64,000 nucleotides of DNA from an uncultured Bacteroidales bacterium (lineage in GTDB: Bacteria; Bacteroidota; Bacteroidia; Bacteroidales; Muribaculaceae): assembly GCA_902787185.1 (NCBI GenBank), contig CADAFP010000005.1:62001-126000 (forward strand). The letters run 5' to 3'. Numbering within the stretch: the first letter of the stretch is position 1; each line of letters begins with the position of its first letter. The position numbers were made by a program, and so were the translations under genes. The notes below the pieces were generated by a model. It did no database searches. It was not told where the DNA came from and saw only the letters and a list, made by a program, of their open reading frames with translations. Of this stretch, positions 21,675 through 62,300 are shown piece after piece.

Positions 21675-21844
21675 AAGAAATCCTTCTTTTTTTATGTCTT
21701 GACGCCGCACACCTTAGTTAAACGGCAAAGGTAACGCATTTTCCCGACAATTATCACAATTGCAGCTAAAAAATTAGCAATGTGCGGCCCATTAACACAA
21801 CATCAACACGAACAACGGCGCTGAATGGCGACCGGGAAGTCCCC

Positions 21845-49398: not shown

Positions 49399-50607
49399 TT
49401 ACCGTAGCAGGTCGGCCACTTCGTCGAGAGAGCCGTCGTTGGGCGAGGGTGATACACCTAACAGGTGGCACAGCAGCGGGTAGATGCACACGTTGCGGAA
49501 ACGGTCCTGCTTCTCGTATCCCACCTTGAAGTCGGGGCCCACAGCACGGAACCCCACCTGCATATCGGCCGCGGTGTGGTCAAAGCCGTGGCTGCCGCGT
49601 TGCTTTTTGGAGGGTTTGTCGGCAAAGAGCCATCCCACATCGGGCAGCACGATGACGTCACCCATGTTCTTGTTGGTGCCGTAGCCCAGATAATCGGGTA
49701 CCTCCCCCTTCTTCCAGGCGCGGATGTGGTCCACACCCTGCAGGGCGTTATAGATGCTGTCGATGTACTGAGGCGCGCTGGCATAGATGAGCGTGGGATA
49801 ATCATTACAGCAACGGTCATACCATCGCTTGGGCAGCACATCGTCGATGTCCACAAAGCGCTTGGGGTCAACGCTGGCCATGCCGTGGTCGCCAGTGACA
49901 ATCAGGTTCACCTTGTCGGCAAAGGGCAATAACTGGATGCGAGACCAGAGCTTGCTGAGCAGTCGGTCCAAGTTTTCCACGGCTCGGCGCGTCATGCTAT
50001 TGAGCGGGCCATAGTTGTGACCACTGCGGTCAGGTTCCTCAAAGTAGCCCATCACCAGATGGGGGCGCTCTTCCTCAGGCAGGCTAAGCAGACGAATGAT
50101 TTCATCGATACGGCCTTCAAAGCCCATCTTCTCGCTCTCGGTCTGGTAGTCGAGCCAGTAGGTGGGATGCTCATCGTTGATGGTCACATCGCTGCCCACC
50201 CAGAACACCGTCGCCGTCTTCACGCCCTGGTGCTTCGCCGTGAGCCAGATGGGGTCACCGCCATAATAGCTGCCATCGGCACGCGTCACCTTGTCTTTCA
50301 ATGAATATTCCACACCTTTCTCCCTGTCCCAAAAGATGTTGGCGATAATGCCATGATGGTCGGGGGTGAGTCCCGTGGCCAGGGTGTAGTGGTTAGGGAA
50401 GGTCTTGCTGGGGAACGACGGCTGCATGACCGCTTTTACGCCTTGGCGGGCCATGATGTCCATAAAGGGCACGTCATAGGTGTCGAGGTAGTCCCACCGC
50501 AGACCGTCGAGCGAGATGATTACCGTGTAAGTGTCACGTCCCGCGGCCCACGACTGAACCGCAACCAACATCAACACCAACAGAAAAGAGAATCTACGCA
50601 TCTTCAT
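49399..50607 (-). CDS. Secreted nucleotide pyrophosphatase/phosphodiesterase (alkaline phosphatase superfamily)
   Basis: About 402 residues. The signal peptide (MKMRRFSFLLVLMLVAVQSW) ends near AA-GRD. The NPP catalytic set is complete: VIISLDGLRWDYLD (metal Asp), QPSFPSKTFPNHYTLATG (nucleophile Thr in KTFPNHY), EEPDRSGHNYGP, VTGDHGMA and GSHGFDHTAADM. The enzyme would hydrolyse phosphodiester or pyrophosphate bonds of nucleotides or nucleotide sugars outside the inner membrane. It is the last gene of the TonB receptor operon, so its product may be the compound imported. I start at 50607, since the upstream 13 codons are not signal-like. Confidence 0.92.
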   Translation of the reverse strand: MKMRRFSFLLVLMLVAVQSWAAGRDTYTVIISLDGLRWDYLDTYDVPFMDIMARQGVKAVMQPSFPSKTFPNHYTLATGLTPDHHGIIANIFWDREKGVEYSLKDKVTRADGSYYGGDPIWLTAKHQGVKTATVFWVGSDVTINDEHPTYWLDYQTESEKMGFEGRIDEIIRLLSLPEEERPHLVMGYFEEPDRSGHNYGPLNSMTRRAVENLDRLLSKLWSRIQLLPFADKVNLIVTGDHGMASVDPKRFVDIDDVLPKRWYDRCCNDYPTLIYASAPQYIDSIYNALQGVDHIRAWKKGEVPDYLGYGTNKNMGDVIVLPDVGWLFADKPSKKQRGSHGFDHTAADMQVGFRAVGPDFKVGYEKQDRFRNVCIYPLLCHLLGVSPSPNDGSLDEVADLLR

Positions 50608-50695
50608 TTTTTTATTATTGTTGAAAAAATGAGGGAGGAGAAGCAATCACAGTCGCCTTCCTCCCCCATTTCATGCTATTGAATCAAGGGATTGA

Positions 50696-52225
50696 TCAAT
50701 CATTCTTCTCGTGCGAGAAGTAAATGCCGTTCTTCAACTGAGGATTTCCCTGATAAGTGCTCCTGATGCCAATGACGGTGAGCTCGTCACCGACCTCGAT
50801 GCCGGCGGTAGCCAGCCAATTCTTGCGGTTGTCACCAGTAGCGCCCCATCCAGGATAGGTTCCATAGACATAGAGCCTGCCAGAGCCATCCACAAGGTAA
50901 AGGTTACCCCAAACAGGATTGTCAATCGCGTCGACGGTACCAGTCACCATGTAGTAAACGTCGGGGTTGTCCTCCTGAGCGAGGAACTGCTCGATGGTCA
51001 CCTGGGTCACATGCTTATAACTATCTAGAACGACGCCACCACTCATTTGTGGGTTGCCATTATACTCGCCACGCTTGCCGACAAGAGTCACAATGTCACC
51101 CACTTTGAGGCCAGCTTCCTTGAATTCGCCTTTAGCACCGACCTGATAAGCATAAACCTCCTTGTCGGACCAGTCACGGATGTAGATATTGCCCGACTCG
51201 GAATTGACCACCTTGGTAATGACACCACTAATACGATATCTCTTGTCACCAACAGGAGCCTCAAGGAACTCAGCCAGTGAACACTCAGGGCCAGCCTGTT
51301 TAATGGTAGCCAAAGCAGTGTATTCTTGACCATTGTCATCGGTAGTCTTGATAGAAACGTCAGCACTGCGTTCCTCATCACCATTATTGGCAGTTGCACG
51401 GAATGTCACCGTAGGCTCTTTTCCTCCAGTTACTGAAAGAATCGAGAGCCAACTCTTGGCCTCATCAGGAATCTCCACAGTGATACCGTTATTGCTCTTA
51501 TTGAGCATATTAACAGTGACATCGCCACCATTCATGGGTATAATGGATTTATCGGGGTCGAACCCATCGAGCTGAATCATCCATTTTTGGAGTTTGATAA
51601 CGGTCACGTCAACCAGCTCAATCTTGCCGTTATAGACGGTCTTGGGACCCTCGACAGTGATGATGTCACCTTCCTCGATGCCCCAAACATCGATAGAATT
51701 GTTTTTTCCGGCCGACCCGTTCTTGTCCAGTGTGCCATAGATATAGATTGAACCAGTCTCATCCATCAGCCACCAGTTACCATAGATGGTATTCTCGATT
51801 TTCGTCACAGTACCCGTCACACGATAGGTCTTGCTCTCGGGACCGGCAATCACCTCGGCGCAAGTAGCCTCGGTGACCACGGGAAGGCCTTGAATCACGT
51901 TGATGGTCTGGCTCTTGCTAGCGCAAGTGACGTGGAGCACGGCCGAGCGTCCGTCCTCGGTTGCAGGAGCGCTGAATGTCACCTTGCACTCGCCTGCCTC
52001 ACCTGTCATGGGGCTAACAGTGAGCCATTCGGGAATTTCTTCGGCATCAAACGCCCAAGAGGAAACGGCATTGAGGGTGATGGCGTTGGAACCACCATCG
52101 ACGTCAACAGCCACATAGGACGAAGAAACCTGAATCTCATCGAGCATCGTCACCGCATCGTCATCGGAGCAAGCCGACAGCAGGGCGACCAGTGCAAAAA
52201 ACGAAATAAAATATTTGAGTTTCAT
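50696..52225 (-). CDS. BACON/OB-fold surface lipoprotein
   Basis: 509 residues. The lipoprotein signal MKLKYFISFFALVALLSAC is followed by acidic residues (SDDD) that favour surface export in Bacteroidetes. A BACON domain covers about 30-115 (SSWAFDAEEIPEWLTVSPMT). Three OB-fold-like modules of the DUF5689 type follow, at about 120-215, 315-405 and 415-505. They share YRVTGTVTKIEN, GNWWLMDETGSIYIYG, KRYRISGVITKVVN, YYMVTGTVDAIDN and the GDELTVIG/GDIVTLVG end. A second BACON-like part lies at about 225-315. It sits between the TonB receptor and the phosphodiesterase and probably binds the same ligand. Confidence 0.85.
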   Translation of the reverse strand: MKLKYFISFFALVALLSACSDDDAVTMLDEIQVSSSYVAVDVDGGSNAITLNAVSSWAFDAEEIPEWLTVSPMTGEAGECKVTFSAPATEDGRSAVLHVTCASKSQTINVIQGLPVVTEATCAEVIAGPESKTYRVTGTVTKIENTIYGNWWLMDETGSIYIYGTLDKNGSAGKNNSIDVWGIEEGDIITVEGPKTVYNGKIELVDVTVIKLQKWMIQLDGFDPDKSIIPMNGGDVTVNMLNKSNNGITVEIPDEAKSWLSILSVTGGKEPTVTFRATANNGDEERSADVSIKTTDDNGQEYTALATIKQAGPECSLAEFLEAPVGDKRYRISGVITKVVNSESGNIYIRDWSDKEVYAYQVGAKGEFKEAGLKVGDIVTLVGKRGEYNGNPQMSGGVVLDSYKHVTQVTIEQFLAQEDNPDVYYMVTGTVDAIDNPVWGNLYLVDGSGRLYVYGTYPGWGATGDNRKNWLATAGIEVGDELTVIGIRSTYQGNPQLKNGIYFSHEKND

Positions 52226-52248
52226 AATCTTGTCTTAGTCTTTAAGAA

Positions 52249-55200
52249 TTAGTTGAAGATGTACTTGATACCGATAGAAGCATTCCAGCACTGACCGACG
52301 GCCTTGTTGGGAACGAAGGTCTCGGTGTTGCCATTGATTGACTTCGGAGTCGAGAAGGTGGCATAACCCTGAGCGTCCACGCCCTCATACTTGAGGATAC
52401 GGGGGTCGCTTCCAATAGAGGGATTGAGGTACTTGCTCACACCCCAGCTGGAGTTGAAGAAGTTAAGCACGTTCTTCATGTCGAAGAGCAGCTGCAGGGT
52501 GTGCTTGGCACCACAAACGTTGAGCGAGAAGTCATGCTTATAGCTGAAGTCGATGCGGTGAACCCAAGGGCTGTAGAGACTGTAAGGCTCGGCATACTCG
52601 CCCTGATGATTCTTCAGGTAGCTGTTAGCGTGCACATAATCCATAAAGCGGTTCTTGTCACCGTCGCTGACAAAGCGGAACTCGCGGTTAGCGACCTGCT
52701 CGTCGGAGGGGATGTAGAGGGCGTCGTAGTTGTAGCCGTCACCGTTCATATCGTTGGCCATCATAAAAGAGTAGTTGTAACCGCCGCGCCAGGTCTCATA
52801 AATCAGGCCATAGTGGTTGCCGCTGCGGTCGTGAGCGGTTGCCGAGAGGACAAAACGGTCAGGGGTCACATACTGCGAGTTGTGCAGCTTGATGTTGTTG
52901 GGGCCCTCGATGGTGGGGACATAGGTAAAGGCACTCTCGGCAGCCGAACCGGGCATACCAGTCACTTCCTTCTGCACGGTGTGGGTATAGGCAGCCATGA
53001 GGCTCAACCAGTCGGTAGGATCAGCATTCAAGGTAATGTTGCCAATCCAACCATAGCCACGGCTGGTGTTCTCGAGGACGAAAGCCTTGGTACCGGTGCG
53101 GAATCCCGAGGGATAAATAGGACGGTTGTCAGCGCCATTGAAGCGTGCAAAGCCACCCACGCTGGGGATAGACCAGTCGCTGATGCTGGCAGCGTTGATG
53201 TTGCGGTTAAAGATACCCTCGACAGTGACAGTGAAGGGGAATGAAACAGGAACTACATAGTCAACAGCCAGCGAAGTTTTCCAAACCATCGGCATCTTGA
53301 AGTCGGGGTCAACAGCACTGATTGAAGAAGGAACAGTACCCATGTCGGGAGTCACATTGGCAGGATAGCCCAGTGCAAACAGTCTTTCACGCAAGGCGTC
53401 GATTGTGGCATTGCCATTGGCATCGGTCACCAAACCGCCAGCAAACTGGCTCATGTCGATGAAGCGGTTGCCATTCTCATCGGTAGTATAGGAGCCAGTG
53501 TAGTTCTCAAAGCCACGGGTGGGTGCACCAGTCTTGCTGTCCCAAACCTTGGTCTTGGCACTGAGCTGTGCCTGATACTGTACCATACCTCCATTGGTGG
53601 GCATATTGGTAAAGAAAACTAAGGGCAGACGGCCCGAGAACAGACCCGAACCACCACGCAACTTGAGCACCTTGTTGCCGAAAACGTCCCAGTTGAAGCC
53701 GACGCGGGGTTGCACAATCAGGTTGCTGCTGGGCCACTTGCCGGTGTCGATGTGCCGAACGTTGCCTTTCTTGTCATAGTAGTCAAGGGCGAGAATGGCA
53801 TTGTTAGTCATCAGGTCGCCATTGTTGAAGAACAGACCGTCGAGACGCAGGCCGTAGGTCAGCTTGAAGCGCTTGGTGATGTTCCACTCGTCCTGAGCAT
53901 AGATACCGGCCTTGTTGAACTGCACGCGTGCAGCAGGCTTGGTCTCACCGCCGTAGCCGTAGGTCAAGCAGACGACTTCGGGGGCGGCACCGTTGATGAA
54001 GTCATCAACGCTATTGTAGCGGTAGTAGCCCGTACCGTTACGCATGTACTGGTTGTCGGCCATCTGGTGCTCAAACGAGAGACCGCCCATGATCTTGTGG
54101 TTGCCATAGTACCAGGTCACGTCGTCACGCAGGTTCCAGATGGTGTTGTGCACGGCGTTGTTCCAGGTGAAGAGCTCATATCCCAGCGCCATGTAGTTGT
54201 CGCGGTTGCCCTCGTCATCGGTCATGGTGATGTCGATGAAGGGGAACTCGCTGGAGTTGCTCAAGCGGATGTCATCCAGTTTGGAGAGGGTTGCCAGGAA
54301 CTGGTTAGACAGGTTGTCGGCCAGACGGCTGTTCAAGTCAACAGAGAAAGAGTGCACAAGGTTGTCCATGCCATACATCGAGTTGGCAAACGACATAGAC
54401 TTCTGTGACATTCGGTAGCTGGGCATTCGGTCGCCACCATCCATTGAAGTGCCGTTAGGCGAATTCCAGAAGCGGTTCTTGGTGTAGTTGTAGCGCAGTG
54501 CCAAGTGATTATTGTGGTTGATGTTCCAGTCCAGACGGGCGAGCAGTTTGTAGTTGTTCTCGTCGGCGGGGAATTTGGTGTAAGAACCCGTCTCATAACC
54601 ATATTTCTGCCTTACGAAGTCACTCACGCGACCCAGGTCGGCAAGCGTGGTGCGGGAAATGTACTGGTCAGGGACAGCAACACCATCGGACGACGCACGC
54701 CAGCGGTTCACGATAGTCGGTTGCTTGGTCATCTCACCGTTTACAAAGAAGAAGAGCTTGTCCTTGATGATGGGTCCGCCAATGGTAGCGCCATAGGTGG
54801 TCACCTGCTCCTTCTCACGAGTACCTACCACAGTGCGCTCAACGGCGTCGCCGCGCATGTTCTCGTTGCGGTGGAAGATGTAGGCACTGCCACGGAACTT
54901 GTTGGTACCGCTCTTGGTGATAGCGTTCACACCACCACCAATGAAGTTGGTTTGACGCACATCATAGGGGGAAATCACTACCTGCAACTCCTCAATGGCC
55001 TCGATGCTGATGGGATTACCGCCACCGGGCAGGTTGTCGCTCAGACCGAAGTTATTGTTGAAGTTGGCACCGTCAACGGTGAAGTTGGCAGTACGGCCAT
55101 CGGTACCAGCAAAGCTCATGCCTTTACCGCCGTAGGGCGACAGACGGGTAACGTCGGTCAGGCTACGGGTAACGGTGGGCAGGCTGCTTATTTGAGCGCT

Positions 55201-55620
55201 GGTGATGTTGGTGGCAGCACCGGTCTTCTCGGCGCGGAACTTGGTAGCAGCCGCGGTGACAACGACCTCGCCCAGCGTATTGGCGCTGACACTCATGTCA
55301 ACATCCAGGTTGGACGTCTCGGCCAGTTGCAGCATGACGCCGTTCACACTCTGAGTTTGGTAACCGACGTAGCTCACGCTCACGGTGTAAGGGCCACCGG
55401 GACGCATACCCTGGATGGTGTAACGGCCATCCATGTTGGTCACAGCGTTGTACTTGGTGCCCGAAGGCGTGTGCAACGCGGTGATGGTAGCGCCAATCAA
55501 CGCTTGATGGTTTTCATCGGTCACAACACCGGACAGCGCCGAAGTTGTCACCTGGGCACTTGATGCCAATGCCACAAAAAACATTGCCACTAATGCCAAA
55601 AGCTTAACTGTTCTCAACAT
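52249..55620 (-). CDS. TonB-dependent receptor, Oar-like
   Basis: A 1123-residue outer-membrane receptor. The signal peptide is about 1-22. A carboxypeptidase-regulatory-like domain covers about 25-110 (LSGVVTDENHQALIGATITA, GRYTIQGMRPGGPYTVSVSYVGYQT). The plug domain comes next (TRSLTDVTRLSPYGGKGMSF, NPISIEAIEELQVVISPYDVRQ, NFIGGGVNAITKSGTNKFRGS), and the 22-strand barrel fills the rest, with no SusD partner next to it. Oar-like receptors in Bacteroidetes often pair with lipoproteins and phosphodiesterases or nucleases. Energised import of a phosphorylated ligand is therefore likely, by inference. Its leader is about 240 bases and carries a terminator hairpin (see 55691-55863). Confidence 0.93.
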   Translation of the reverse strand: MLRTVKLLALVAMFFVALASSAQVTTSALSGVVTDENHQALIGATITALHTPSGTKYNAVTNMDGRYTIQGMRPGGPYTVSVSYVGYQTQSVNGVMLQLAETSNLDVDMSVSANTLGEVVVTAAATKFRAEKTGAATNITSAQISSLPTVTRSLTDVTRLSPYGGKGMSFAGTDGRTANFTVDGANFNNNFGLSDNLPGGGNPISIEAIEELQVVISPYDVRQTNFIGGGVNAITKSGTNKFRGSAYIFHRNENMRGDAVERTVVGTREKEQVTTYGATIGGPIIKDKLFFFVNGEMTKQPTIVNRWRASSDGVAVPDQYISRTTLADLGRVSDFVRQKYGYETGSYTKFPADENNYKLLARLDWNINHNNHLALRYNYTKNRFWNSPNGTSMDGGDRMPSYRMSQKSMSFANSMYGMDNLVHSFSVDLNSRLADNLSNQFLATLSKLDDIRLSNSSEFPFIDITMTDDEGNRDNYMALGYELFTWNNAVHNTIWNLRDDVTWYYGNHKIMGGLSFEHQMADNQYMRNGTGYYRYNSVDDFINGAAPEVVCLTYGYGGETKPAARVQFNKAGIYAQDEWNITKRFKLTYGLRLDGLFFNNGDLMTNNAILALDYYDKKGNVRHIDTGKWPSSNLIVQPRVGFNWDVFGNKVLKLRGGSGLFSGRLPLVFFTNMPTNGGMVQYQAQLSAKTKVWDSKTGAPTRGFENYTGSYTTDENGNRFIDMSQFAGGLVTDANGNATIDALRERLFALGYPANVTPDMGTVPSSISAVDPDFKMPMVWKTSLAVDYVVPVSFPFTVTVEGIFNRNINAASISDWSIPSVGGFARFNGADNRPIYPSGFRTGTKAFVLENTSRGYGWIGNITLNADPTDWLSLMAAYTHTVQKEVTGMPGSAAESAFTYVPTIEGPNNIKLHNSQYVTPDRFVLSATAHDRSGNHYGLIYETWRGGYNYSFMMANDMNGDGYNYDALYIPSDEQVANREFRFVSDGDKNRFMDYVHANSYLKNHQGEYAEPYSLYSPWVHRIDFSYKHDFSLNVCGAKHTLQLLFDMKNVLNFFNSSWGVSKYLNPSIGSDPRILKYEGVDAQGYATFSTPKSINGNTETFVPNKAVGQCWNASIGIKYIFN

Positions 55621-55690
55621 AGAAAAAACTTGTTTTAATAAGTAAAAAAATGATTAACTATTAATTAAATGTTTGTTTTGCTAACTGTTT

Positions 55691-55863
55691 TTAAAAAGAG
55701 TCGCGCCGCAATAATGGCAGTATTCCATTAATTGCGGCGCGTGTGTCGCTTGCAGTACCCTCTTGCAGCGGGTTATAGAATTGGCTTGCAGCCAATTGGC
55801 AACAAAATAACCTAAAGGGTATGCCAAAAAAATGATGTATCATTATTGATATAGTCACTAATA
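55691..55863 (-). promoter_or_regulatory. Structured leader with a terminator-like hairpin (candidate riboswitch or attenuator)
   Basis: In RNA order on the minus strand: outer stem TACCCT/AGGGTA (55816-55821 with 55756-55761), middle stem GGTTAT/ATAACC (55807-55812 with 55771-55776) and inner stem AATTGGC-tgcaa-GCCAATT (55779-55797) are nested. CTGCAAG occurs three times. Then a 16-bp terminator stem with one bulge (55702-55717 with 55725-55741) runs into CTCTTTTT. It lies about 70 bases before the receptor start. No known riboswitch consensus was recognised. Confidence 0.65.
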
Positions 55864-55869
55864 CGGGTG

Positions 55870-55899
55870 CAAAGGTAGACATTTTTCCTCACATGACAA
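55870..55899 (-). promoter_or_regulatory. Promoter of the TonB receptor operon
   Basis: Minus strand: TTG (55897-55899), 19-base spacer, TACCTTTG (55870-55877). The predicted start is near 55863, which gives the long leader. Confidence 0.8.
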
Positions 55900-55925
55900 G
55901 GAAGAAAGAAAATAATTTATTAACA

Positions 55926-55948
55926 CTCTCCTTTTTTAACAAGGAGAG
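55926..55948 (-). terminator. Terminator of ruvC
   Basis: CTCTCCTT-ttttaac-AAGGAGAG, a perfect 8-bp stem downstream of ruvC on the minus strand. It lies about 70 bases past the stop, beyond the AACGGA-type repeats. Confidence 0.65.
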
Positions 55949-56005
55949 GACGGAGGGGACGGAAGGAACGGATTTAACGGAGAGAACGGATTTAACGGAG
56001 AACGA
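55949..56005. repeat. AACGGA-type short repeats
   Basis: GAACGGATTTAACGGAGA occurs twice in tandem within a run of GGACGGAGG-like units. A related GTAACGGAATTAACGGAGG stands at about 48292-48310. Confidence 0.6.
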
Positions 56006-56016
56006 TAGTGTAATCC

Positions 56017-56583
56017 CTATTTCTTGACGCGGTCGGGGTGCTGGGCGACGAAGGATTTCCAGGATTTGGCACCTTTGGTCTGGAAGGGCTTGTTGCGCTC
56101 GTAGAAGTGACACAAGGCGGCGGCGAGGGCGTCGGTAGCGTCGAGCAGGGCGGGCATCTGCGCTTCGTCGATGCCCAGCGTGCGCTGGAGCATCAGCGCC
56201 ACCTGCTCCTTGCTGGCGGCACCGTTGCCGGTGATGGCCATCTTGATTTTGCGCGGCTCATACTCGGTGATGGGAATCTCGCGGTTGAGGGCAGCGACCA
56301 TGGCCACGCCCTGTGCCCTACCCAACTTGAGCATCGACTGTACGTTCTTGCCATAGAAGGGCGCCTCGATGGCCATCTCGTCAGGCAGGTACTCGTCAAT
56401 GACGCCGCTCACGCGCTCATAGATGTGTCTGAGCTTCATGTAATGGTCCTCCATGCGTCCCAGTTGCAGCACGCCCATGACGATGAGCTCGGGCTTCTTG
56501 CCATTGACGCCCAACAAGGCATAACCCATCACGTTGGTGCCCGGGTCGATGCCGATGATGATATTTTGATACCGCTTGTCCAA
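56017..56583 (-). CDS. ruvC: Crossover junction endodeoxyribonuclease RuvC
   Basis: Resolves Holliday junctions made by RecA recombination, together with RuvAB. 188 residues. The acidic active site is visible: Asp13 in [15 protein letters not shown], the Glu in [19 protein letters not shown] and the two Asp of [45 protein letters not shown] is typical. The C-terminal extension ([19 protein letters not shown]) is basic. It follows the transporter gene by 45 bases with TTAG heptamers between. Confidence 0.96.
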
Positions 56584-56584
56584 A

Positions 56585-56625
56585 TTAGGCTTTAGGCTTT
56601 AGGTGATGGGCTTTAGGTGTTAGGA
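56585..56625 (-). repeat. TTAG heptamer array
   Basis: TTAGGCT units in tandem, interrupted once, fill the 45-base gap between the transporter gene and ruvC. Confidence 0.65.
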
Positions 56626-56628
56626 GTC

Positions 56629-58314
56629 CTAAGCGACGGCGAAGATGATGATGAGTTCGGCGATGAGGACGCGCATGAACATCGTCAAAGGATAGACTGT
56701 GGCATAGGCGACAGCGGGTGCGTCGTTGCCAGCGGTGGTGTTGGCATAGCCCAGTGCGGGCGGGTCGGTTGTAGCACCGGCAACGAGGCCCATGATGGTG
56801 CAGTAATTGAGGTGGAGCTTACCTCGGGCGACGATGACGGCGATGATGAGCGGGATGATGGTGATGAGGAAGCCGTAGAGCACCCACATCGCACCATTAG
56901 CGCTCAGGATGGTGGACACGAAGCGTCCACCGGCAGCAATGCCCACCGAGGCCAGGAAGAGACACAATCCCAATTCACGCAGCATGAGGCTGGCAGCCGT
57001 GCTGGTATAGGTAACGAGTTTTGCCTTGTAGCCATAACGGCCAATGAGGATGGCCACCACCAGCGGTCCTCCTGCCAAACCCAGCTTCATGGGCACCGAC
57101 ATTCCAGGCAGCATAATGGGAATGGAACCCACCAGAATACCGAGGAAGATGCCGATGAACATGGTGAACAGGTTGGGATGCTCCAGACGCTTGTAGGAGT
57201 CGCCCATGCGCTTGCCCAGACGGTCCACGTCCTCTTCACGACCCACGACGGTGAGGCGGTCGCCCACCTGCAGCGACAGGTTGGGGCTTGCCAGCAGTTC
57301 GACGCCAGCGCGATAAATGCGGGTGACGTTGACCTTGTAACCCTCGTGCAGGCGGATGGAGCCTATCTTGCGCCCATTGAGTTCGCTGTTGGTGATGACA
57401 ATGCGCTTGCTCACGATGCCCTTGGGCGAGGTCTCGAGTTGCCAGTCAAAATCGACTTGCGGGCCGATGATGGCATCGAAGATTTCCTGGTCGTGGGCGC
57501 TCATGACGATGCGCAGCACGTCGTCCTGATGGATGATGGTCTCGCCTCGAGGAATCTCAACCGTGCCGTCAGTGCGCTTGAGTCGCGAAATGGTGAAGTT
57601 GCGGTCGATGATGGAGTGCAGGCGCGTGACGGCCTTGTCAAAGATGAGCTTGTTGGTCACCTGATAGGTGATGACGTGTGGCTTGAGTTGACTGTCTTCC
57701 TTCTCACGCTCGATATCCTCGATTTCCTTATCGACATTGATGCTGAAGAAGACTTTCAGGAGCACCATCGACAAGATGATGCCTATCACGCCCAAGGGAT
57801 AGGCGGCCGCATATCCGAGTGCCATCGACTCGTTAAGGCCACGGGCATGCTCGCCCATGGTCTCGATGATCGCTTGCTGGGCGGCACCCAGTCCGGGCGT
57901 GTTGGTCACCGCGCCGCTCATCACGCCCACCAGGTCGGTGACAGTGATGTTGCCAGCGATGAAGTAGATGGCGAATGCCACCACAACGTTAAGCGCCACA
58001 ATGAGCATGGCGATACCGTTGAGCTGGATGCCCTCATGCTTGAACGACGAGAAAAAGCTGGGTCCCACCTGGAGGCCGATGGAGAAGATGAAGAGAATCA
58101 AACCGAACTCCTGAATGAACTTGAGCGTCGGACCATCGACGGTGACACCGAGGTGCCCCACAAGGATGCCGCAGAAAAGGACAAAAGTGGCTCCGAGTGA
58201 GATACCAAATATTTTCACTTTGCCCAACAGCACACCAATCGCAATGACGATGGCATAAATGAGCAGGGTGTGTGCTACACTATTACCGATGAATAATTCA
58301 GTGAACCAGGACAT
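56629..58314 (-). CDS. AspT/YidE-type transporter with two RCK-C domains
   Basis: 561 residues. Two membrane halves of about five helices each (about 10-185 and 380-560) carry the duplicated AspT/YidE motif (GLILFIFSIGLQVGPSFFSSF with VMSGAVTNTPGLGAAQQA; LGLCLFLASVGIAAGGRF with MGLVAGATTDPPALGYA). Between them are two TrkA-C/RCK-C regulatory domains (about 205-290 and 295-375: GETIIHQDDVLRIV, LSLQVGDRLTVVG). AspT exchanges aspartate and alanine. The substrate here is unknown. It lies between the HAD and ruvC genes with gaps of 57 and 45 bases. Confidence 0.92.
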   Translation of the reverse strand: MSWFTELFIGNSVAHTLLIYAIVIAIGVLLGKVKIFGISLGATFVLFCGILVGHLGVTVDGPTLKFIQEFGLILFIFSIGLQVGPSFFSSFKHEGIQLNGIAMLIVALNVVVAFAIYFIAGNITVTDLVGVMSGAVTNTPGLGAAQQAIIETMGEHARGLNESMALGYAAAYPLGVIGIILSMVLLKVFFSINVDKEIEDIEREKEDSQLKPHVITYQVTNKLIFDKAVTRLHSIIDRNFTISRLKRTDGTVEIPRGETIIHQDDVLRIVMSAHDQEIFDAIIGPQVDFDWQLETSPKGIVSKRIVITNSELNGRKIGSIRLHEGYKVNVTRIYRAGVELLASPNLSLQVGDRLTVVGREEDVDRLGKRMGDSYKRLEHPNLFTMFIGIFLGILVGSIPIMLPGMSVPMKLGLAGGPLVVAILIGRYGYKAKLVTYTSTAASLMLRELGLCLFLASVGIAAGGRFVSTILSANGAMWVLYGFLITIIPLIIAVIVARGKLHLNYCTIMGLVAGATTDPPALGYANTTAGNDAPAVAYATVYPLTMFMRVLIAELIIIFAVA

Positions 58315-58371
58315 TTTTTAGAATTTAGATAATAGTTATTAGATCTGAGATAATAGATAAGTTCCTTATCA

Positions 58372-59040
58372 TCAGGAGATTTTGATGCCGTTCTCGACGA
58401 TGTCGAGGATATCGACGGGATTGTTGACTATGGCGTCGGCATGGTATTCGACGAGCTCCTTCTTGTTGCGGAAACCCCAAGTCACGCCCACCGAATCGAT
58501 GCACGCGCGCCGTGCCGTCTCCATATCCACACCACTGTCGCCGATGTAGAGTGTGTCGGCCTTGGCAACCCGCGCCTTGGCAAGGATGGCAAACACCACA
58601 CTGGGGTCAGGCTTGACATTGACGCCATCGCGGTGTCCCTCGACGGCGACAAAGTCGATTTCAGGATAGAAATGCGGGATGATCTTATCGACAGCCTTTT
58701 GGTACTTGTTGCTGGCGACCGCCATCGCCACGCCCATGTCGCGCAGGTCCTGCAGGAGTTCCGGCATACCATTATAGGGCTTGGTGTAGTCGGTGCAATG
58801 CACGTCATAGTACTCGAGGAAGTCGCCCAGGACGCGGTCCACCGTCTCGTCGTCACGTGCATCCTCAGGGAGCACACGCGTCATCAGACGCCGCACGCCG
58901 TTGCCCACAAAGTAAGGGTAACTTGCCATGCTATGCGTGGCATAGCCGTTGCGTTGGAGGGCATAGTTGGCCGCCTGCCCCAAGTCCTCGATGGTGTTGA
59001 GCAGGGTGCCGTCCAGGTCAAAAATCACGAGCTTCTTCAT
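58372..59040 (-). CDS. HAD-family phosphatase, phosphoglycolate phosphatase-like
   Basis: 222 residues of a HAD hydrolase with cap C1. Motif I is FDLDGTLLNTIEDLG (nucleophile Asp), motif II is VASNKYQK, the lysine follows in VNVKPDPSVVF, and motif IV is YIGDSGVDMETARRA. It resembles Gph, which removes 2-phosphoglycolate formed in DNA repair, but HAD substrates cannot be told from motifs. It is the first gene of a minus-strand group with the transporter and ruvC. A -7 box (TACCTTTG, minus) stands at 59062-59069. Confidence 0.9.
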   Translation of the reverse strand: MKKLVIFDLDGTLLNTIEDLGQAANYALQRNGYATHSMASYPYFVGNGVRRLMTRVLPEDARDDETVDRVLGDFLEYYDVHCTDYTKPYNGMPELLQDLRDMGVAMAVASNKYQKAVDKIIPHFYPEIDFVAVEGHRDGVNVKPDPSVVFAILAKARVAKADTLYIGDSGVDMETARRACIDSVGVTWGFRNKKELVEYHADAIVNNPVDILDIVENGIKIS

Positions 59041-59061
59041 ATCTCAATCACAATTACGCTG

Positions 59062-59069
59062 CAAAGGTA
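59062..59069 (-). promoter_or_regulatory. -7 box of the HAD phosphatase gene
   Basis: TACCTTTG on the minus strand, 22 bases before the start codon. The -33 is unclear. Confidence 0.6.
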
Positions 59070-59177
59070 GTAATTTTCCCGTGAATTATAGATATGGTTG
59101 ACGGCACAATGCATCATTATTGAATTAGTAGCGTGTGGTGCAATCGTTTGCGTTGATTCTTTATATAATTGTAGTGC

Positions 59178-59253
59178 GTGGAGGGCACTTTGGGTGGATA
59201 AGAATCATTAATTTTGGGACTACAAAAATCTGTGGTCCTATGAGGCCCTCCAC
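59178..59253 (+). promoter_or_regulatory. Promoter region of the amylase gene with nested inverted repeats
   Basis: The -7 box TAATTTTG lies at 59209-59216. Directly after it is an 8-bp hairpin with one wobble (59217-59224 with 59231-59238). A perfect 9-bp outer pair GTGGAGGGC (59178-59186) and GCCCTCCAC (59245-59253) flanks both. The best -33 (TTG 59190-59192) is only 16 bases from the -7. Confidence 0.6.
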
Positions 59254-59301
59254 CATCGGAATAACCAAAATTTTTACTCATAACTCTAAAAACGACGCAT
59301 T

Positions 59302-62300
59302 ATGAAAAAGATTCTTACATTCATTGTTGCGCTTGTGGTATCGTTATTGACGCTGCAAGCGGGCGCCGCCATGTACATTGTGGGTTCTGCCCCATTCGGC
59401 GGTTGGAAGACCAATGCGGGCGTTCAGATGACGGCGAGTGGCAACAGCTATACCGCCACCGTCGAAATCAATGGAGACGCCTATTTTGTGTTTGCCACTC
59501 AGCTGTGTTCATCGGCTGATGATTGGACCACCTTCAACAACTATCGTCTTGGCCCCAAGACCAATGACTATGTCGTGAACACCGGCAGCACCTATACCGC
59601 CTACAGTGGGCAAGGCAGCAACTCCTTCAAGTTCACGGGAAGCGGTTCTTATGTGTTTACCTTCAACAGCAGCAACAACCAGTTCACCATCAACGAGGCG
59701 ACAGGCCCTGTCACAGCAGGTGACCTGTACGTGCTGGGTGAGGTGAACGGTAACGGCTGGGCACCCAACACGGGTGTGAAGATGGACTATGACGAGTCCA
59801 ATGGCCTGTACAGCACCACGGTAACCACTACTGGCGCGAACGAGGGCTACAGCTACTTCTCGTTCACTACCCACCTGAGTGATGTCGCCGATGACTGGGC
59901 AGGCATCGCCAGCTACCGCTATGGCGCCGAGACCAACGACTATCCGACGGTTGTTGACACCCAGATGCCGCTGCAGCGTGGTGAGAACGCCTTCATGATT
60001 CCCGCAGGCACATGGAAATTCACGGTAAGTCTGACCAATGGCTACCTGCTGGTTGAGCAGGTGGGCGATGGCCCCGGCCCGCAACCCACAGGCCAGCTGT
60101 ACATCTTAGGTGAGGCCAATGGCAACACGTGGGCAACCAACGTGGGTGTGGCAATGGCTCAGAATGAATCCACTGGTCTCTACACTGCCACGGTGACCTT
60201 CAACGGCGAGCACAGCGAGGAGGATGCCAATGTGAGCTACTTCTCGTTCACGACCAAGCTGGCTGACACCGATGACGACTGGGCTGGAATCGAACCTTAC
60301 CGTCTGTCGCCTATCGCTGACGAGGGCACCAACTTCTGGGTGACCCCGCAGATGCTCGGCCACGAGCTTGCACTGAACAACATGGGCGAGAATGTGGACG
60401 TATCGTTCCGCATTCCTGCCGGCACCTACACGGTTACCGTCAATCTGGCTAACCGCATCTGCGTCATCACCCGCGAGGGAGGCAGCACGCCCGTTTCGGG
60501 CAAGGGCTGGCCGTCGATGTATGGCGGTGTGATGTTGCAAGGCTTCTATTGGGACAGCTACAAGGCTACGCGCTGGACCACGCTGACCGATCAAGCCCAA
60601 AACTTGGGTCAATACTTTGACGTGGTGTGGGTTCCCAACTCGGGTAGTGTCGATCCCAATGGCGTGGCTCAGAGCATGGGTTACATGCCCGTTTATTGGC
60701 TGAAGCACAACACCTGCTTCGGTACCGAGCAGCAGTTGCGCAACATGATCAGCACCTTCCACGAGCACAACACCAGCGTGCTGATGGATATGGTCATCAA
60801 CCACAAGAGCGGTAAGAGCAGCTGGGTTGACTTTGCCAACGAGACCGTTATCGGTCCCGTCACTGGCGAGGAATATAGCATGACCTGGTCGCTTGCCGAC
60901 ATTTGCCGCAGCGATGAGTGCGTCGGCGCAGGCTACGCCGCCACTGGAGCCTATGACGAGGGCGAGGACTTTGACGGCAGCCGTGACCTGGACCACACCA
61001 GCGCCAACGTGCAGAGGAATGTCAAGACCTATCAGCAATACCTGATGAAGGAGCTGGGCTACGACGGCTTCCGCTATGACATGTGTAAGGGTTATGCCGG
61101 CTACTATGTCGGTCTGTACAACAAGGCCAGCGAGCCCGCCTTCTCGGTTGCCGAGTATTGGGACGGTAACGCCGAGACCCTGCGCTGGTGGCTCAACGAG
61201 ACCAAGCAGGACGACAGGATTCAGAGTGCCGTGTTTGACTTCGCGTTGAAGTACCCGATGCAGAGCGCTTTTGCCACCGGCAACTGGAGCGCCCTGAACG
61301 ACAAGGGCCTTGCCGCTGACCCCAATTATCAGCGTTACTCGGTAACCTTTGTCGATAACCACGATACGGGCCAAAACGGCAACTATGACTGTCTGAAGAC
61401 CAACATCATGCCCGCCAACGCCTTCATTCTGGCGATGCCTGGCACACCGTGTATCTTCTACAAGCACTACCTCGTGTATGCCGACGAAATCAACAACTGC
61501 ATCAAGGCCCGCCGTGCCGCTGGTGTCCACAACCAGAGTGCTATCCTCACCCAGCAGGAGAGCAGCGGCGGTTACATCCTGGAGACCCAGGGAACTCGCG
61601 GAAACCTGTACTTGCAGGTGGGCGGCGCCACCAACAACGGCTGCCCCTACGGCTATGAACTGGTACAGGCCGGTGACGGCTATGCCCTGTACATCACTTA
61701 CGGCATCGACTGGCGCCACGTGGCTAAGGATGGAAGCATCGTGGGCTATCCCGTGGTGAGCAAGGCCGCTGGCAACTATGTTGGCAACGTGAGCCTGACC
61801 GTAGCTCCCAGCAAGGGCGGCACGACGCTCGTCTATACTACCGACGGCAGCGAGCCTACCACCGCAAGCGCTACCATCACCGCCTCTACCCCGATGACCT
61901 TTACCGAGAGCACGACCTTGAAGGTCGGTGTCCTGAACGGTGACCAGGTCGAGAACATCGAGGACTACATCTATACCATCACGGCTGCCGAAACCACTGG
62001 CATCAACGTGTATGTGAAGACGACGTTGAACAACGCCCATATCTGGGCCTGGACCAACACGGGCAGCGTGACTGGCACCAACTGGCCCGGCAAGGCCATC
62101 ACCTCACTGAACAAGGTGACCGTCAATGACATCGAGTGGTATTGCCTGCACGTGGATGCCGACGAGGTATCGCTCATCTTTAACAATGGTGAGGGAGGTT
62201 TTGAGAAACAGACCGCTACCATCAACGTGACGCGTGACGCCTTCTTCATGTATCCCTACAGCGACCTGAGCACCTATGGCTACGGCGCCGCCGACACCTA

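Follow-up and report, generated by a model that had tools for sequence, protein, structure and literature searches.

The leader in front of an Oar-like TonB-dependent receptor gene of an uncultured Bacteroidales bacterium is probably a ribosome-mediated transcription attenuator, comparable to those of pyrBI and bmrB. Sequence comparison established coding constraint on a short ORF, an intrinsic terminator and a conserved overlap of both. A coding ORF that overlaps a terminator is how leaders under ribosome-mediated attenuation are built. The locus lies on the minus strand of the window, i.e. the whole stretch of 64,000 nt that was analysed, and the coordinates given below are those of the window.

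The promoter (55870..55899, minus strand) is composed of TTG at 55899-55897, a 19-nt spacer and TACCTTTG at 55877-55870, which we take, by its consensus, to be of the Bacteroidota type. A consensus scan picked up neither this promoter (not of the sigma-70 type) nor the terminator, whose hairpin is plain by eye. The leader is ~175 nt long and the receptor starts at 55620, ~250 nt (about 240) 3' of the promoter. A TAnnTTTG box was present 241-268 nt 5' of the receptor in all 26 receptor loci with a leader of the window's kind (type A, see below), and none of them had one within 210 nt of the receptor start, the nearest lying 213 nt upstream (this box type only). Since no such box occurred between hairpin and receptor in any of the 26 loci, the receptor appears, at the sequence level, to depend on read-through past the hairpin. 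Folding of the 248-nt leader, terminator included, gave -57.4 kcal/mol vs -43.4 for shuffled sequences (z -3.17, none of 200 shuffles equal). Re-reading of the minus strand confirmed the pieces seen by an earlier, sequence-only reading of this DNA, namely promoter, leader, stems, terminator hairpin and three copies of CTGCAAG; a point absent from it is the ORF at 55843-55691, which spans the stems, the hairpin and the T-run.

A simple scan of the window for the same layout returned eight promoter-like sites, two of which had a qualifying hairpin with an overlapping ORF: the present leader and a weaker one (-14 kcal/mol) at 21733. At the latter site, also on the minus strand, the leader is of 191 nt, its hairpin is weak and its ORF of 32 codons is followed by one of 598 codons. 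Another hairpin, CTCTCCTT/AAGGAGAG (55948-55926, minus strand), was observed 3' of ruvC; it has no clear T-run and may mark where the ruvC transcript ends. A multi-copy element was rejected after a search of the own genome with the leader DNA (E ≤ 10). Of its 11 matches, one was the locus, one was the hairpin of the locus in opposite orientation (E 0.006) and the other nine had E ≥ 0.5.

The receptor (52249..55620, minus strand, 1123 aa) displayed the Pfam domains CarboxypepD_reg and OMP_b-brl_4; the name Oar-like is that of the sequence-only reading. It is followed by a BACON-domain protein (50696..52225, minus strand, 509 aa, Pfam), predicted in that reading to be a lipoprotein, and by an NPP/ENPP-type phosphodiesterase (49399..50646, minus strand, 415 aa), assigned by Pfam and by two PDB entries, ENPP1 and a bacterial NPP, that it matched at E ~1e-64. 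Among named records, the best relatives (best 80 of 370) were for the most part MAGs from rumen and gut, with Muribaculaceae, Prevotellaceae or Bacteroidales in the title. Operons were surveyed over at most 6 kb of flanking DNA, less at some loci, and the BACON-domain gene was found next to the receptor in 26/26 type A loci and in 9/9 loci with a second leader type (type B, see below). The phosphodiesterase gene is a neighbour and an inconstant member of the operon: it came after the receptor/BACON pair in 25 of the 26 type A loci, with gaps from less than 100 to more than 1000 nt, it occurred in a single type B locus out of nine, upstream of the receptor there, and it was found in none of the loci titled Prevotella. 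A nucleotide or phosphate-linked signal, guessed at earlier from the presence of this gene, is thus a weak proposal, because both gap and presence of the phosphodiesterase vary.

The leader ORF (55691..55843, minus strand, 50 codons plus stop, MIHHFFGIPFRLFCCQLAASQFYNPLQEGTASDTRAAINGILPLLRRDSF) starts 26 nt past the -7 box and has its stop codon inside the terminator T-run. It emerged on translation of the leader and is backed by homologues and their pN/pS ratios. For 33 distinct gapless segments of 22 codons, out of 56 loci, pN/pS was 0.25 in frame, vs 1.38 and 1.30 in the other frames. The same was observed along helix P1 (55762..55806, minus strand; 5' strand 55806-55799, 3' strand GCTGCAAG at 55769-55762), a structure called by RNAalifold inside the ORF. 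Over 39 aligned leaders, the in-frame ratio was 0.36 for the 5' arm with its flanking bases (vs 1.42 and 0.88 in the other frames), 0.25 for the loop (pS 0.64, pN 0.16; vs 1.77 and 1.08) and 0.34 for the 3' arm (vs 0.57 and 3.37), so that in each arm one of the other frames was not high (0.88 and 0.57). This alignment holds 39 distinct leaders from 65 loci, close pairs among them, and its codon counts omit three columns with a 3-nt insertion of two leaders (L026 and L082). In 53 of 56 loci the frame was opened by an ATG, GTG or TTG situated 20-34 nt past the -7 box; the start-picking rule placed the remaining three at 46 nt (L031 and L094) and 12 nt (L037). Coding constraint was strong over ~28 residues, and by these comparisons the type A leader ORF is evolving as a coding sequence. 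Its nascent peptide is conserved within the type, as in arrest-peptide leaders of the TnaC/ErmCL kind. No known peptide family was matched in searches of NCBIfam with three leader peptides and of Pfam with 28 type A rows.

Type A peptides occurred in 39 of 101 genomes of the genus, own genome counted. The peptide profile gave 40, one of which (G037) was weak and taken as spurious. Leader DNA alone detected 31/101 at E ≤ 0.01, own genome included, one (G069) by just 27 bases. The 39 genomes were exactly those with an identity of 84% or more to the window at the N-terminus of the receptor (compared by eye, one receptor, that of G060, being counted from two fragments), while a receptor match of any kind was recorded in 92/101. 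Two leader profiles, A1 and A2, were built partly from genomes that were later searched, which flattered their E-values. In the 101 genomes, profile A1 also gave four weak extra matches (G048, G053, G094 and G100), each in a genome that has a strong match as well; three were on the contig of the receptor, and by eye they are leader-like sequences 5' of a different gene. These type A-related sequences (L178:1144-1233, L179 reverse complement 1895-2047, L180:1148-1288 and L181:1244-1390) each display a similar hairpin and precede an ORF of 484-507 aa, which is on the same contig as the receptor in 3/4 genomes. A dockerin-like stretch was read by eye in this ORF of L179, L180 and L181.

The terminator (55702..55741, minus strand) overlaps the 3' end of the leader ORF. 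It reads CGCGCCGCAAT-T-AATGG...CCATT-ATTGCGGCGCG, i.e. 16 bp with one bulged T, followed by CTCTTTTT, and the ORF stop codon is contained in its T-rich tail CTCTTTTTAA (55691..55700, minus strand). An attenuator-like intrinsic terminator between promoter and receptor was part of the sequence-only reading and was borne out in relatives: 93.4% of cells were paired, compensatory change was seen at 9 of the 16 pairs and 38 cells had changed on both sides, vs a mean of 9.7 after shuffling, with none of 500 shuffles reaching the covariation score. T-runs were short in some leaders. A strict hairpin pattern was found in 10/101 genomes, own genome not among them, nine times at the receptor leader and once at the second leader of G100.

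The type A ORF entered the 5' arm of the terminator in 39/39 distinct leaders, vs 6/39 and 0/39 for the other two frames. Weight is placed on this contrast between frames, not on a product of probabilities, since the leaders are relatives of one another and the mean chance that a linker is still open after shuffling was 0.72 per sequence. The stop codon came after the hairpin in 35 leaders, in the 3' arm in one, in the loop in one and in the 5' arm in two. Indels of 1-2 bases around the hairpin altered the C-terminal frame, and the frame was closed before the hairpin in none of the 39. In five of them (L010, L016, L028, L029 and L036) it has no stop and continues in frame through the terminator into the receptor gene.

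A rare isoleucine codon was almost invariant in leader types A and B. Codon 8 (55820..55822, minus strand) was ATA in 36/39 type A leaders (counted as codon 9 where the ORF starts one codon earlier) and in 17/17 of type B; codon 12 of type A was ATA in 37 rows and TTA in two. The share of ATA among isoleucine codons of neighbouring genes was ~4% to 8% (648/8377), and the adjacent Gly, Ala, Phe and Gln codons switched freely among alternatives. AUA at codons 6-8 was also displayed by 12 of 19 loci of other leader types, vs 13/291 background genes, a pattern that was noticed before being tested and a gene set that holds some spurious ORFs. Helix P1 begins 14-16 nt past the last AUA base, at ORF nt 38-40, in types A and B alike. 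Given the usual extent of the ribosome footprint, we infer that a ribosome with AUA in its A site would end just 5' of P1. The helix itself is imperfect in the window, and it is CUUGUAGC/GCUGCAAG in most relatives. In type A it was paired in 95.5% of cells, vs 21-60% for slid versions, and these measures did not exceed those of shuffles.

These codons raise the alternative of an attenuator sensing charged tRNA-Ile, in which slow decoding of AUA (codon 8, and 12 in type A) would park the ribosome behind P1 and so select the downstream fold. In the classical trp and his attenuators, a short ORF with a control codon near the first hairpin is followed by a terminator. The likeness lies in the order of these elements, with P1 as a candidate first hairpin, and both the near-invariance of a codon rare in nearby genes and its constant distance to P1 speak for such a mechanism. 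Yet the type A and B ORFs display one to three isoleucine codons and no run of codons for a single amino acid, their conserved residues are mixed and the receptor is without known link to isoleucine. No conserved alternative (2:3) pairing was found either, since the type A consensus of RNAalifold paired no upstream sequence with the terminator 5' arm. We regard this mechanism as unlikely. As no conserved antiterminator was found in type A, the simplest model would be a ribosome that directly blocks the hairpin.

Type B leaders were found at the same place in 15 genomes of the same genus whose receptor shares 67-70% identity with that of the window; their peptide is approximately MALLxFFIFDxxxPGSQxYTAGDxISH. 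Two further genomes (G010 and G006) were added by eye, and there was no overlap between these 15 genomes and the 39 of type A. Searched against 397 family genomes, the type B profile matched 30 at E ≤ 0.05, of which 15 were strong (E ≤ 2.6e-10) and 15, at E ≥ 0.006, were taken as chance. In the 17 distinct leaders (out of 25 loci) the ORF entered the terminator 17/17 times, eight stopping in the 5' arm and nine in the loop or 3' arm, vs 0/17 and 2/17 for the other frames. The stop position is thus unfixed, being mostly past the hairpin in type A and always inside it in type B. A P1-like hairpin was paired in 90.8% of cells, with four compensatory cells vs 1.6 in shuffles, 27 of 500 of which were equal. 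Coding constraint was weaker than in type A, with a pN/pS of 0.41 over codons 1-12 (other frames 0.59 and 2.19) and of 0.93 over the hairpin codons. By eye, peptides A and B share no sequence, yet they stand in the same layout.

Among 38 further upstream regions of the genus, 11 had no box 150-420 nt upstream; ten of these have a box 44-126 nt 5' of the receptor and no such leader, and the eleventh (L203) is a truncated region. For the other 27, an automatic rule called a hairpin in 25, which the ORF reached in 18. This rule errs both ways: two loci scored as misses (L196 and L219) reach the hairpin by eye, for L204, L213 and L227 it picked hairpins other than the terminator-like ones, and the ORF of L226 stops 12 nt before its hairpin. 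Nineteen loci were hand-picked from the 38, with start codons chosen by eye, leaving out two of type B (L207 and L209), the 11 without a box 150-420 nt upstream and six with another layout or none assignable (L199, L201, L202, L205, L206 and L210). Folding at the ORF start, expressed as mean z against shuffles, was -1.93 in these 19 (for one of which, L195, the hairpin is the terminator and not P1), -1.77 in the 39 of type A and -1.83 in the 17 of type B, vs -0.47 (sd 1.26) in 60 control genes. Loci L199, L205, L206 and L210 form a further type with a longer leader and a common block around GATATAAACGAGGC, which the same ORF layout does not fit. Leader types of dissimilar sequence thus stand before the same receptor.

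Coding constraint over ~28 type A residues would also be expected if the ORF were a separate gene for a small protein, ending at a terminator of its own, with receptor transcription owed to constitutive read-through or to a promoter that went unrecognised. This explanation is rather unlikely. Only the start of the peptide is kept; towards the C-terminus its frame, stop and length differ between leaders, and some frames run into the receptor. Moreover, peptides A and B look unrelated while their layout is the same, and the region next to the receptor was devoid of TAnnTTTG boxes in the type A loci.

The sequence-only reading had favoured a ligand- or protein-binding RNA, built on three nested stems (55756..55821, minus strand) and a repeated CTGCAAG motif. 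In the window, the stems are TACCCT/AGGGTA (outer, 55821-55816 / 55761-55756), GGTTAT/ATAACC (middle, 55812-55807 / 55776-55771) and AATTGGCT/AGCCAATT (inner, 55797-55790 / 55786-55779), all on the minus strand; the two sizes of 6 bp given earlier were right, and the innermost stem is of 8 bp by sequence instead of 7. As a conserved element they did not survive comparison: in the 39 distinct leaders homologous columns were paired in 58.2% of cells, vs a shuffled mean of 58.3%, an outcome which that reading had itself named as speaking against it. The low pairing is owed partly to a two-base register shift of the outer stem in relatives, where in the shifted register the inner five pairs were kept in 28-39 of the 39 leaders and the outer three in 17-24. 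Likewise, CTGCAAG dissolved into codons. Copies 1 and 2 lie within GCT GCA AGC (Ala-Ala-Ser) and CTG CAA GAG (Leu-Gln-Glu) in the conserved part of the peptide, and copy 3 (ACT GCA AGC) was not kept in relatives. An alternative pairing of this motif had also been suggested; the middle copy does pair with CUUGUAGC, in the helix kept as P1, and its covariation was not above that of shuffles. If the leader is a translated one, the case calls for caution, as codons can generate the structure that one leader sequence displays.

A metabolite riboswitch or protein-binding RNA with an incidental ORF nevertheless accounts for several observations, i.e. the folding z of the leader, the retention of P1 and a constraint on nucleotides. 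Such a constraint, besides coding, is likely from the alignment because its column 42 was T in 39/39 leaders, although the codons concerned specify six amino acids (Thr, Ser, Ala, Phe, Val and Ile). Against it stand the unconserved stems, the frequent synonymous change in the P1 loop, the constant entry of the ORF into the terminator in both types and the dissimilarity of leaders before the same receptor. Rfam at E ≤ 1 gave no family for window positions 50000-60000. A ligand aptamer is therefore not supported, as stems were unconserved in relatives and Rfam was without match, and we consider the whole explanation quite improbable. A small RNA acting in trans, made as the terminated transcript of ~175 nt and lying before the receptor by chance, is very improbable. 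A promoter, a structured RNA and a terminator do add up to a full transcription unit; against this, coding constraint is present and the leader sequence varies before orthologous receptors while the layout stays constant.

Ribosome-mediated attenuation, the reading preferred here, has known counterparts. In E. coli pyrBI, the leader ORF, of 44 codons, extends across the terminator, and termination is averted by a ribosome that keeps close behind the polymerase; UTP is sensed by pausing of the polymerase at a U-rich stretch, and the peptide sequence is not known to matter. The present leader resembles it in having an ORF that runs into the terminator and differs by a conserved type A peptide. 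Among the cases compared, the nearest experimentally studied one is bmrB of the Bacillus subtilis bmrBCD operon, a 162-nt leader gene with an intrinsic terminator inside its coding region (PMC4191407). There, loss of the bmrB start codon lowered read-through, rare codons altered the outcome, codon optimisation (faster translation) led to more termination, and the operon, which has a predicted antiterminator, encodes a lincomycin-induced drug transporter (PMC4191407). Both systems have a terminator inside the leader ORF. Unlike bmrB, the present leader precedes an outer-membrane receptor in Bacteroidota, has no conserved antiterminator in type A and displays a fixed AUA and peptides that differ between relatives. 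Within Bacteroidota, short ORFs in long 5' UTRs were mentioned for Bacteroides thetaiotaomicron (BT_4401, PMC7366714) and leader-peptide clues for amino-acid biosynthesis operons of Flavobacterium psychrophilum (PMC9723704). Leader peptides are thus suspected there too; in contrast to the present case, the passages compared concern no outer-membrane receptor (PMC7366714, PMC9723704). Passages of the uORF4u paper do not mention Bacteroid- (PMC10219788), and a literature search, whose coverage of subscription papers and preprints was thin, returned nothing that we recognised as describing this leader.

Attenuation would proceed as follows. RNA polymerase would start ~240 nt before the receptor and transcribe the short ORF, which runs into the intrinsic terminator. 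A ribosome translating this ORF and arriving in time at the terminator 5' arm would hold the hairpin open, and receptor and partner gene would be transcribed. If translation were late, weak or arrested upstream, the hairpin would form and transcription would presumably stop there. How the ribosome is timed against the polymerase is probably set by AUA codon 8 and the downstream P1, to which the conserved nascent peptide may add a means of sensing. Candidates for the step at which a signal is set would be the nascent peptide, AUA decoding and the plain translation rate. The putative direction of the effect could also be the reverse, by analogy with bmrB, where faster translation raised termination.

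A broader reading, which we put forward tentatively as a possibility less probable than its negation, is that of a Bacteroidota attenuator class in which the layout is fixed while related species have entirely exchanged the peptide that precedes one and the same receptor. The fixed layout comprises the promoter, the start codon, AUA at codons 6-8, a hairpin just beyond the waiting ribosome and a terminator entered by the ORF. AUA is decoded by lysidine-modified tRNA-Ile, and in such a class this decoding would serve for timing or sensing and so couple the synthesis of the receptor to the capacity for translation.

Should the attenuator be confirmed, Bacteroidales of gut and rumen would control an outer-membrane receptor through translation of a leader overlapping a terminator, and several dissimilar peptides would serve before orthologous receptors. 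The system would then offer a clear test of transcription-translation coupling in Bacteroidota, and of the role of a fixed rare AUA codon.
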